From Alloacidobacterium dinghuense (GTDB lineage Bacteria; Acidobacteriota; Terriglobia; Terriglobales; Acidobacteriaceae), in contig NZ_CP060394.1 in NCBI RefSeq assembly GCF_014274465.1, positions 2,728,001 to 2,792,000 of the forward strand: a stretch of 64,000 bases of DNA, given 5' to 3'. The notes under the pieces were generated by a model. The model saw nothing but the letters and a program-made list of their open reading frames with translations. It had not been told where the DNA came from and did not search any database. The translations under genes were made by a program, and so were the position numbers. Numbering within the stretch: the first letter of the stretch is position 1; every line of letters begins with the position of its first letter. Shown in pieces: positions 174-3,466 of this stretch.

Positions 174-998
174 CTACTGGGAGGAAGAAGGCGTAACCGG
201 CATGACTGCCTTCGAGTTTGCCGGCGCCTTTGGGTCTATTGCAAAATCGAATACCCTTGTCGGAAACAGGTTTTGCCCCCGGGGCAAACACATAAGCGCA
301 TACTCTCCCGGCGCTAGCGGCTCACTCGCTGTAATTTTTTGCCAATCTGTACCACCCACTTTTTCGGTTTTAATTACGAGAGCCTGGCTATTTCGTGCCG
401 CTTTGCCCGTGATCTGAGTGAAGGCGATTGTGCTCACGATCCGCCGGTCTTTCTTCGATTCGACTCTTACCATGGCTAGATCCATCTGCGTGGAGGTTTC
501 AGAGGATACCGCGGCATCTTCGGAGGATATTGCATACCCGCGAATGTAGATGCTGAGATTCGGCTCATGGAGCCGCACACTTGCTGCTGCGCCCTGAATC
601 TCGACGGATTCTTTTGGCTTATAGATGAATGGAGCCATGTTGGCTTTTAAGACATTGGAGCCTGCATGCCTGTCTATGTCTGTCGGCACGTATTTCAATT
701 GAACAAGCTGCCGCACGCCATCAAAGTTGTCCGTGGCCCACACATGACCGACAGATGGCAATACCAACCCATCCCCGATTGGGGTGCCCGCTGCCCTGGC
801 AGAAGACGCGACATCTGGCCGGCTGACTGAAACTTCGCTTTGAGGAATTGGCTGCGATTGATGGCTGAGGCGTGGACGGTTAGGGTCATCCTGTTGAGCC
901 CACAATCCAAACGCAAAAGCTGCTAACGCCCCTACTAAGCAAGCCTTTGCCAAAAGAGAACCAGACAAGCGCGGGAGCCCCGCGAAAACCGAAATCAT
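174..998 (-). CDS. Secreted or membrane-anchored hypothetical protein
   Basis: The product has 274 residues. The N-terminus has a hydrophobic stretch (about residues 14-33, ending FGLWAQQ) that looks like a signal peptide or single anchor, with possible cleavage after WA. The rest is hydrophilic with beta-type alternation and no cysteine-rich or catalytic motif that I recognise. The ATG at 996-998 is supported by an AAGGA sequence a few bases upstream on the minus strand. A strong leftward hairpin with a T-run (1073-1102) lies about 75 bases upstream and probably isolates this gene from transcription coming from the ferritin-like gene. Function unknown. Confidence 0.7.
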   Translation of the reverse strand: MISVFAGLPRLSGSLLAKACLVGALAAFAFGLWAQQDDPNRPRLSHQSQPIPQSEVSVSRPDVASSARAAGTPIGDGLVLPSVGHVWATDNFDGVRQLVQLKYVPTDIDRHAGSNVLKANMAPFIYKPKESVEIQGAAASVRLHEPNLSIYIRGYAISSEDAAVSSETSTQMDLAMVRVESKKDRRIVSTIAFTQITGKAARNSQALVIKTEKVGGTDWQKITASEPLAPGEYALMCLPRGQNLFPTRVFDFAIDPKAPANSKAVMPVTPSSSQ

Positions 999-1072: not shown

Positions 1073-1102
1073 AAAGGGCAGAGCTGGTTGGCTCTGCCCT
1101 TT
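1073..1102. terminator. Hairpin terminator, copy 1 of a repeated stem-loop
   Basis: A perfect 12-bp stem (core arms GGGCAGAGC and GCTCTGCCC) has a TGGTTG loop. On the minus strand it is followed by six Ts, so it looks like a good leftward intrinsic terminator. The same 24-base core recurs at 1377-1400. Confidence 0.7.
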
Positions 1103-1195: not shown

Positions 1196-1228
1196 TGTCA
1201 CGCGTGTGTCATATGCGTGTCATCGCTT
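1196..1228 (+). promoter_or_regulatory. Triple Pho-box-like direct repeat (copy A)
   Basis: TGTCA starts at 1196, 1207 and 1218, giving exactly 11-base spacing three times. This is the geometry of PhoB binding sites (11-bp direct repeats with a TGTCA core). It precedes the decayed HD-gene relic at 1257-1366 and matches copy B upstream of the intact HD gene. Binding by PhoB is an inference from spacing and core only. Confidence 0.55.
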
Positions 1229-1256
1229 TGTTCTTGCATCCTCCCGCGACTTGCTG

Positions 1257-1366
1257 TGATTGAATCGAGTCATGCTGGCAAAACACAAGGCGCCTGACGG
1301 AACCGAAAATCGTTGCGCTCAGAAATTTTCTGGAAGCAGTCGAATCGGAATCCGCAGGCGCCTTTG
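1257..1366 (+). pseudogene. Internally deleted relic of an HD-domain hydrolase gene
   Basis: Bases 1280-1361 align without gaps to 3375-3456, the 3' end of the intact HD gene, with 70 of 82 bases identical. Eight of the 12 differences fall in third codon positions, so the copy had diverged under protein-level selection before it decayed. Bases 1257-1279 (TGATTGAATC, then ATGCTGGC) match the start region of the same gene (TGATTGAATC, ATGCTAGC). The middle of about 500 bases is missing, and the join puts the start ATG (1272) out of frame with the retained 3' end. The relic also keeps the Pho-box-like repeats upstream. It is therefore a paralogue that lost its interior, not a random duplication of a gene end. 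Confidence 0.75.
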
Positions 1367-1374
1367 TATATATT

Positions 1375-1402
1375 GAGGGCAGAGCTGGTTGGCTCTGCCC
1401 TC
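1375..1402. terminator. Hairpin terminator, copy 2 of a repeated stem-loop
   Basis: An 11-bp stem with the same 24-base core as 1076-1099 and loop TGGTTG is followed on the plus strand by TTTTCTCC. It lies just after the HD relic on the plus strand and about 80 bases beyond the stop of the ferritin-like gene on the minus strand, so it could serve either direction. Confidence 0.65.
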
Positions 1403-1482
1403 TTTTCTCCGCTATGTTCCAGCGGCCCCACCCTGCTGGCTTCATGCGAGAACAACGCAGATATGGTTCGAGGTTTTACGAA

Positions 1483-2649
1483 TCAATCCCTGCGCCTTGC
1501 CTCGTCGGCGTCTTCTGCCAGATCGTTTATATATTTGAAGAACGCCGGCGACTGGCGGAGAAACAGGCCGTCATCGATAAACGCCTTCACTGTTGCCGCT
1601 GCCGCGCCTTTTGTCGCTGTCGGACGGATGATCGAAACCGGGGGAAATTTTCTGTTTAGAAAACTAGTCGGCTCGGGCATGATGAGATTCGCCTGCAAAT
1701 CTTCATTGCCTGCGAACTTGCTGATATCCGGAAAGTCCACGGTATCGCCGCTTACCGGATCCTTCACGCCCTTCAATGGCGGACAATTCCCGGCCTTGTC
1801 GTGCCACGTCTGGAAGTGCATGATCTCCGTTCCCCCAATGCTCAGCAGAATACGAAGAACTTCCGAATGACTGACTCTTTGCGCCAGCTGAGCGTAGAGG
1901 CTTGTTCCCCCCTGCTCGATAAATGCAAAGTGAAAACCCGCGGTATTGGCGATGTATTGCGTGAGGTCAGTGACGCCATTGGGCGAGCTCGAGTCCAATT
2001 GCGCTTCATTGTTATTTCTGGGGATCGCTGTATGTTTCTTCGTTCCCAATACCTTGATCGCATTGGTGAAGGTATCGCCAAGGTCAGGATTCTTAGTGCG
2101 GCTTCGGTATCGTGTCCACCACGACGTGTCGACGGTCAACTCCATAAGATTGGTGAGCCGTCCTATATTCTGCGCGCCAGTCGCCTGACTGCTGGGCAGA
2201 TTTCGGAATGATTTGAGATCTGCAGTATCGGCGCCTTTCGAGGCCAGATACGAATTGATGAAGTCCTGATGACTGAATTCATCTTCGGTATTGTCGTGAA
2301 TGTATTGGGGCATGTCGCCGTCGAGATTTTGCAACGCCCTGATGTAGGCGGCATTTCCCCCGGTCAGTCCCGTGATTTGAGGCGGTTCATTCGTTTGATT
2401 GCCTCCGAGTTCTGCGTACTGCTGCCAAAGATCCGTTTCAATGGTCTCGATGGCGGCAAGAAAGCGCAGAATTGCTGCGTCGCCTGGTTCGAGCCTTCCG
2501 CTCTTTTCGTCTTCTTCTGCCTGAAGTTTGAGGCTTCCCAGTAAACCTCCGGTTGACAACGCGGCACTGGCAACGCCAATGCCCTTGATAAACGAGCGAC
2601 GCTTCACTACACCAGTCGCGTTGCTCGGTGCGTGATTTTCCTTTTCCAC
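1483..2649 (-). CDS. Tat-exported ferritin-like domain protein
   Basis: The 388-residue product starts with a twin-arginine signal (KRRSFIKG at about residues 16-23, then an Ala/Gly-rich hydrophobic stretch), so it should be exported folded. The body has helices with spaced Glu/His pairs (IETIETDLWQQY, EDEFSHQDF, GGTEIMHFQTW) typical of the ferritin-like di-iron fold (Pfam Ferritin_2-like proteins). The frame is open further upstream to 2733, but I chose the GTG at 2647-2649. It has AAAGGAGTG about six bases upstream, and the extra 28 residues are arginine-rich and unlike a leader. Role is unknown; oxidative or metal handling in the periplasm is plausible. Confidence 0.8.
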   Translation of the reverse strand: MEKENHAPSNATGVVKRRSFIKGIGVASAALSTGGLLGSLKLQAEEDEKSGRLEPGDAAILRFLAAIETIETDLWQQYAELGGNQTNEPPQITGLTGGNAAYIRALQNLDGDMPQYIHDNTEDEFSHQDFINSYLASKGADTADLKSFRNLPSSQATGAQNIGRLTNLMELTVDTSWWTRYRSRTKNPDLGDTFTNAIKVLGTKKHTAIPRNNNEAQLDSSSPNGVTDLTQYIANTAGFHFAFIEQGGTSLYAQLAQRVSHSEVLRILLSIGGTEIMHFQTWHDKAGNCPPLKGVKDPVSGDTVDFPDISKFAGNEDLQANLIMPEPTSFLNRKFPPVSIIRPTATKGAAAATVKAFIDDGLFLRQSPAFFKYINDLAEDADEARRRD

Positions 2650-2740
2650 GCTGCACACTCCTTTAAGGATCGTCTGCGGTGACCTGGCCCGTCGATCTCG
2701 ATCACCGCGTAATAAGCCTCTCGCTGTATCCACTTGAGCT

Positions 2741-2786
2741 TGTCATGCAGATGTCATCTACGCGTCATCTGTTTGTTTACTACTTA
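2741..2786 (+). promoter_or_regulatory. Triple Pho-box-like repeat with candidate -10 (copy B)
   Basis: TGTCA, TGTCA and CGTCA begin at 2741, 2752 and 2763, exactly 11 bases apart. A TACTTA sequence at 2781-2786 lies about eight bases beyond the third repeat, which is where a -10 would sit in a PhoB-type promoter whose -35 is replaced by boxes. The orientation points to the HD-domain gene at 2861. The ferritin-like gene starts 92 bases away on the other strand and could also be affected. Confidence 0.6.
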
Positions 2787-2860
2787 AGAACTACAGCCAA
2801 ACTTCAAACACCTTTCGCGCGCTCAAAAAAAACAGGCTCTGTTCATGATTGAATCTGTCT

Positions 2861-3466
2861 ATGCTAGCCACGTTTCGCACAGGCATTGAAAAGTTCATCC
2901 AAAGCCACGCAAAGCCGGTTGAGAAGTACGGCCACCAGCCGCGGCTCTACGCGTTGACCCGACACATAGGCGCAGATCTCAAGTACGACGATGATGTGGT
3001 TTTTGCGGCGGCATGGCTGCACGATCTCGGCGTCTTCGTGGGGCATCGTCCGGAAGACCCGGCAGAGCTTGCCAGCTGGGATCACGTGCGCTATGCCTGT
3101 GACTGCGCTCCTCAGATTTTGCAGGACACTGGATTTCCTGCTGAAAAAATTCCTGCTGTGCTGGCTGCGATCAGCGAGCATCAGCCTCAAGACAGCCCGA
3201 CGAGCATCGACGCGACGATTTTGCGCGACGCCGACATTCTGGAACAGCTGGGCGGAATTGGCGCTCTGCGCACAATCGCGAAAGTGGGACGCGACACCCG
3301 CTTCTCGACGTTTACCGACGCGGTAAAAACATTACGGAAGAATCTGGAGGCGCTGCCCGGACAAATTCGTCTGGAAAACACAAAGCGCCTGGCAGAGCCG
3401 AGGATCGCTGCACTCAGGAATTTCCTGGATGCAGTCGAATCGGAATCTGCAGGCGCTCTGTTTTAG
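2861..3466 (+). CDS. HD-domain metal-dependent phosphohydrolase
   Basis: The 201-residue protein has the HD-superfamily arrangement: a histidine in LTRHIG, the HD pair in AAWLHDLG, a histidine in AISEHQ, and aspartates in LRDADILEQLGG. These residues usually bind two metals and hydrolyse phosphate esters or nucleotides. The substrate cannot be told from sequence. I use the ATG at 2861; a TTG at 2849 in the same frame is an alternative, and neither has a clear ribosome site. Upstream Pho-box-like repeats suggest induction under phosphate limitation, which would suit a phosphohydrolase. A decayed paralogue lies at 1257-1366. Confidence 0.75.
   Translation: MLATFRTGIEKFIQSHAKPVEKYGHQPRLYALTRHIGADLKYDDDVVFAAAWLHDLGVFVGHRPEDPAELASWDHVRYACDCAPQILQDTGFPAEKIPAVLAAISEHQPQDSPTSIDATILRDADILEQLGGIGALRTIAKVGRDTRFSTFTDAVKTLRKNLEALPGQIRLENTKRLAEPRIAALRNFLDAVESESAGALF

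Follow-up and report, generated by a model that had tools for sequence, protein, structure and literature searches.

The operator-like repeat described here resembles the Pho boxes of the Escherichia coli PhoB regulon, in which TGTCA cores recur every 11 bases, as in TGTCATAAAACTGTCATA at pstS (as given in an extract of PMC10294691). The boxes of our locus are likewise direct repeats of the TGTCA type with an 11-base period, and since both core and period equal those of the E. coli pstS site, the resemblance is real but not specific. In contrast to the E. coli regulon, the strand opposite to that on which TGTCA is read more often carries the gene start, and the boxes track another regulator. 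When compared with the described OmpR/PhoB-family regulators MtrA, RpaB, PhoB and YycF, this candidate obtained best NCBIfam scores of 189–209 bits, well below all of their equivalog cut-offs (296–340 bits). The hydrolase encoded at the locus has the HD domain in common with YedJ-like HD phosphohydrolases (3gw7 and 2pq7, sequence matches with E 2.8e-9 and 2.7e-5), but it obtained 44.2 bits against an equivalog cut-off of 286 for the YedJ model NF007515. Pseudogene remnants from tandem duplication are ordinary in bacteria, and the remnant reported here is likewise truncated, out of frame and collinear with an intact copy; unlike them, it keeps an intact operator, and its surviving coding piece forms a strong hairpin.

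The window, by which we mean the whole 64-kb stretch of the Alloacidobacterium dinghuense genome that was analysed, carries the features listed in Table 1. Reading along the + strand, one finds the last part of a DUF4440 gene, then the 174-998 gene (- strand), hairpin 1, BOX1, a start remnant and a tail remnant, and further on hairpin 2, a Ferritin_2 gene (- strand), BOX2, the HD gene and a gene on the - strand which we take, from its sequence, to be secA. Three features had not been included in the original prediction for this DNA, namely the Ferritin_2 gene, which lies between both loci and is divergent from the HD gene, the two identical 26-base hairpins, and the strong hairpin that occupies the 82 tail bases. 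The HD gene scored above the curated domain cut-off (PF01966, 32.7 against 22 bits), and 29 of the 150 family genomes, own genome counted, gave a match. A 38-aa ORF at 1260-1376 spans the relic out of frame and ends at hairpin 2; it is unsupported as a gene.

Table 1. Position of the features of the two loci in the window
Feature	Position	Strand	Remarks
DUF4440 gene, 3'-most piece	to about 151		
Gene without known family	174-998	-	
Hairpin 1, terminator-like (GGGCAGAGC stem)	1075-1100	.	identical to 1376-1401; -23 kcal/mol, z -5.5
BOX1, operator-like triple TGTCA	1196-1222	+	11-base spacing, 15/15
Relic of the HD copy, leader and start region	1257-1279	+	match to 2846-2868
Relic of the HD copy, last codons, long hairpin	1280-1361	+	70/82 with 3375-3456; fold z -6.6
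Hairpin 2, terminator-like, between relic and Ferritin_2 3' end	1376-1401	.	-24.6 kcal/mol, z -5.8
Ferritin_2 (PF13668) gene	1483-2649	-	PF13668 31.5 bits, cut-off 24.7; start approximate, longest frame to 2733
BOX2, operator-like triple, between Ferritin_2 and HD	2741-2767	+	14/15; arrangement common to G088
Intact HD-domain hydrolase gene	2849-3466	+	205 aa from TTG; alternative start ATG at 2861
Long hairpin overlapping the HD 3' end	3380-3461	+	z -6.1 to -6.3; 33 pairs, 30 pairable in relic

The first locus had been described as an internally deleted paralogue of the HD gene with its box retained, and this description held. Three homologous blocks are collinear in the two loci, and the piece missing within the HD copy, estimated earlier at about 500 bases, was measured as 506 bases. 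The box with its flank (1144-1232 against 2690-2777) gave a score of 28.0, the best of 1000 mononucleotide shuffles being 25.5, the start regions scored 14.0 where none of 2000 such shuffles exceeded 13.5, and the tails align without a gap. Earlier coordinates and counts were reproduced with the exception of the third core of BOX2: TGTCA stands at 1196, 1207 and 1218 in the first site and at 2741 and 2752 in the second, where 2763 reads CGTCA. As judged by this alignment, the copy at the first locus is truncated and lacks 506 bases of the HD gene. This number cannot be divided by 3, so that start and tail stand in different reading frames; the relic is homologous to and collinear with the HD gene but with a destroyed reading frame, as is usual for a pseudogene. 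It most probably codes for nothing. The 15% difference between the copies, in a genome of one 6.27-Mb contig, makes an assembly artefact improbable. A dispersed mobile repeat was rejected, the only long match of the relic in its own genome being the HD gene. Moreover, relic and HD gene share 70 of the 82 tail bases, compared with 62 and 65 for the congener G070 and 57 and 56 for G142; the two copies are nearest each other, so that the duplication looks lineage-specific.

Of the 12 tail differences, eight affect the third base of a codon (P about 0.02 for an expected share of 1/3), and the relic had therefore been regarded as a functional diverged paralogue before the loss. With G070 as outgroup, seven changes were placed on the relic branch (1, 3 and 3 at codon positions 1, 2 and 3) and four, all at position 3, on the HD branch, the branch of one difference being unsettled; these counts are low, and the second outgroup, G142, contradicts G070 at 3394, 3397 and 3412. 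The third-position differences thus divide into four on the intact gene, three on the relic and one without assignment, and a good share of the excess comes from the intact gene. With four of the seven relic-branch changes at positions 1-2, the case for a formerly functional paralogue is weak, and the changes in the relic, small in number, show little sign of constraint.

The triple box is not a chance pattern. When up to two mismatches were allowed, the window contained three matches at two sites only (two of them overlap at site 1), where 0.31 were expected; with up to one mismatch, the own genome contained 11 matches (two overlapping) against 1 in the control. Exact triple boxes were found at 50 sites in 36 of the 150 family genomes, against one control site. 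BOX1, BOX2 and the boxes of G142 and G088 have 13-19 of 29 non-core bases in common, whereas they share 4-11 of 25 with four hand-picked other boxes. With regard to orientation, the 50 exact sites had a gene start on the reverse side only in 21 cases, on the forward side only in 4, on both sides in 22 and on neither in 3, as counted without a background control for ORFs of at least 100 aa within about 400 bases, using longest-frame starts.

To which gene the box belongs was judged from the homologous loci. We scored the 300 bases upstream of the HD match, on both strands, at 30 HD loci (the 29 family matches, own genome included, and L090). Conserved 11-bp repeats were absent from 28 of them, and the two exceptions, one of which is the window itself, both adjoin Ferritin_2 and carry boxes of 14 and 15 of 15. 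Among the 28 loci without Ferritin_2 in the fetched flank, none had a box of at least 12/15; the best score was 11/15, a borderline box of this score in G035 (L016, shuffle P 0.027) was scored as absent, and the HD locus of Edaphobacter lichenicola, confirmed by contig scan, had no box. Ferritin_2 was matched 72 times in 50 of the 150 genomes, and among 30 fetched loci, taken as the best match per genome, 21 had a box of at least 12/15 within 350 bases while nine did not. All 21 boxes read away from the Ferritin_2 gene, and for none of them did any of 100 shuffles attain the score; 19 of these 21 loci had no HD gene within 1.5 kb (one was present at 2 of the 30). We assign the box to Ferritin_2 rather than to HD because it tracks the Ferritin_2 loci and is missing from HD loci that lack them; the Ferritin_2 gene is therefore the probable main target of BOX2. 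The order HD, box, Ferritin_2 also occurs in another genus (G088), where the forward box precedes HD, just as a forward box precedes a DUF4440 gene in G142; HD could therefore be a genuine co-target.

The surroundings of these elements have been rearranged among relatives. The order is chemoreceptor, hairpin, box and DUF4440 in G142 (operator and hairpin at L051 6186-6390), chemoreceptor, hairpin and DUF4440 in G070, and chemoreceptor, hairpin and secA in G035, the names chemoreceptor and secA being our reading of the sequences. Hairpins like hairpin 1 thus follow the presumed chemoreceptor gene in G142 and G035 and stand beside it in G070. Given operator and hairpin before DUF4440 in the congener G142, and the likeness of the BOX1, BOX2, G142 and G088 boxes, one promoter module seems to sit before different genes. 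When the relic (1190-1410) was searched by blastn against the 150 family genomes, matches outside the own genome were found just in G142 and G035, both to the terminator hairpin. In the own genome this hairpin has three copies (at 1075 and 1376 of the window and at 2160 kb) and a 17-base partial match. The copy at 2160 kb belongs to a second debris site (G000:C1:2160139-2160836; L056 3140-3837) made up of a DUF4440 end (81%), the hairpin and a Ferritin_2 end, the last being 97% identical to 1372-1916 of the window.

Pfam matches indicate that Ferritin_2 is one of several targets, since 3 of the 67 scanned box-side proteins match its model. The 42 reverse-side proteins yielded Radical_SAM (8), B12-binding (8), NTP_transf_5 (4), NHL (4), ASST (3), and RibBA domains, cytochrome c, TIG and Ferritin_2 (2 each), and the 25 forward-side proteins yielded response regulator (4), Radical_SAM (4), B12-binding (4), HPr-kinase C-terminal (2), Ferritin_2 (1) and DUF4440 (1). 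Some neighbours without family match we read as porin-like from their sequences. Exact triple boxes at L095, L099, L103, L119 and L188-L190 lie before or between genes for B12-binding radical SAM-like enzymes. The family matches of these loci include NTP_transf_5 and HPr-kinase-like proteins, and the genes may form a biosynthetic cluster controlled by the regulator considered below. In two genera (L101 and L110), a box precedes an apparent RibBA (riboflavin) gene.

A one-mismatch box of the own genome precedes the gene of an OmpR/PhoB-type response regulator, G000:C1:4030340 (PF00072 and PF00486 domains). Behind it lies the gene of a kinase that has HATPase, HAMP and HisKA domains and matches dCache_3 marginally (26.5 bits, cut-off 25.7). 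Orthologues were matched in 87 of the 150 genomes. At the 30 best-scoring loci, 21 had a box of at least 12/15 in forward reading within 250 bases upstream, with a score that no more than 1 in 100 shuffles attained at any of them, and nine had none; the regulator is thus apparently autoregulated through a box at its own promoter. The regulator (at least 274 bits) was present in 32 of the 36 box-bearing genomes, four of them giving no hit of this strength, compared with 75 of all 150 (Fisher P 7e-8), and 19 of the 50 exact boxes, in 17 genomes, lay within 40 kb of an orthologue at this score; it should be underlined that these statistics ignore phylogeny and that the contigs are fragmented.

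Taken together, we consider it likely that the window holds a tandem-duplicated unit whose first copy decayed, with an operator of an uncharacterised two-component regulon of which Ferritin_2 is the conserved target. An ancestral unit consisting of terminator hairpin, Ferritin_2 (- strand), operator and HD (+ strand) would have been duplicated in tandem in this lineage. The first copy would then have lost Ferritin_2 between hairpin 1 and BOX1, besides the 506 bases within HD that are missing from the alignment, so that operator, start region, tail and the common hairpin 2 remain. Hairpin 1 would mark the lost gene, because it is identical to hairpin 2, which sits just past the Ferritin_2 3' end, and the first locus is thus probably also without a former ferritin-like partner. 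It counts against this explanation that the lost Ferritin_2 appears to have left no recognisable sequence in 1101-1195: on its own, this flank gave no match above chance to 2400-2740 (equalled by 368 of 1000 shuffles) or to the whole of 1402-2740 (123 of 500), and P was 0.007 only when the flank was anchored at the box. Further points against it are the nine Ferritin_2 and nine regulator loci without a box of 12/15, the four box-bearing genomes without a strong regulator hit, and the small share of box-side proteins that match Ferritin_2. The operator itself would be bound by the regulator G000:C1:4030340, with which the boxes are associated. HD would be a divergent neighbour that may or may not respond.

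BOX1 may instead have been kept for the 174-998 gene on its other side, whose start lies 197 bases away and which has the orientation most usual for targets of the regulon, as judged by the excess of reverse-only over forward-only sites among the exact boxes. However, hairpin 1 stands between this gene and BOX1, and in G142 and G070 no box adjoins its orthologue; we find this reading unlikely.

That the relic has become a gene for a small RNA, with an operator-driven promoter, a hairpin of about 80 bases and a strong terminator, seems to us somewhat less probable still. The operator of the relic is perfect, the terminator-like hairpin after it is stable (Table 1), and both copies of the HD tail fold as a long stem (z -6.6 in the relic and -6.1 in HD, with 34 and 33 pairs in an 88-base frame). 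Among 1305 window tiles, one equalled the stability of the HD tail and six that of the relic, the tiles on both themselves counted. Between relic and HD, three pairs have changed on both sides with pairing kept (simulated P 0.017 over 88 bases and 0.008 over 83). Of the 33 pairs, 30 can still form in the relic (P 0.06, or 0.03 over 83 bases). The strict 82-base frame, however, leaves two double changes (P 0.06-0.08; fold energy P about 0.05), in a test that was post hoc and based on two sequences. Hairpin-less orthologues also show double changes (2 in G070, and 0 to 7 in the 12 listed), so that the compensatory signal is weak. The other 28 orthologue tails folded gave no such hairpin (lowest z -1.7), and a structure conserved across species is thus missing, the hairpin occurring in the own genome only among the 29 HD tails; nor did the relic find family matches outside its genome other than those to the terminator hairpin. 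A known RNA family was rejected: Rfam gave three weak matches, and the best, with 23.9 bits, stayed far below its gathering score of 45. A quasi-palindrome repaired by template switching can acquire paired changes, and such repair would yield identical ones; selection on RNA, this repair or luck are all possible causes. In its fullest form, in which the duplicate was hollowed to operator, 3' hairpin and terminator and its stem kept by paired changes, the relic would be a newborn regulatory RNA gene; the chance of this is slight, and its transcript, if real, would be regulated and related to the 3' end of the intact parent HD gene.

The weakest alternative is the one originally proposed, namely that these are true Pho boxes through which PhoB controls HD, and formerly its paralogue, under phosphate limitation. 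It is favoured by the core and period common to the E. coli sites and by the forward position of the box before HD in the window and in G088. Against it, 28 of the 30 HD loci lack the box, and in the pst/phoU regions fetched, which were located by PhoU and in which pstSCAB names are our reading of the sequence, no triple reached 13/15; upstream scores did not exceed 11/15, a value that 13 of 200 shuffles attained at pstS and 10 of 200 at the second phoU. The regulator with which the boxes associate obtained 204.7 bits against the PhoB cut-off of 296.2, and no regulator of the own genome passed the PhoB model TIGR02154 (best 240.4 bits), a cut-off that is strict, as just 2 of 14 control genomes pass it; the best PhoB candidates of this genome are those at 2423724 and 2556418. 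The E. coli-type double-box pattern was not enriched in the window either (6 matches against 4.98 expected). We therefore rejected the PhoB assignment, and control of HD by PhoB is very improbable; the operator appears to fit an uncharacterised two-component system that targets Ferritin_2 better than it fits PhoB and HD.

The relic itself is ordinary decay beside a real operator. Traced through the genomes of one bacterial family, this operator of 27 bases points to a regulon under two-component control, and no description of such a regulon was found among the titles and abstract openings listed by the literature searches. A TGTCA repeat should not be named a Pho box before the pst operon has been checked. 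The recurring neighbours of the box, namely Ferritin_2, B12-binding and radical SAM proteins and RibBA domains, provide a short list of what the regulon may control.
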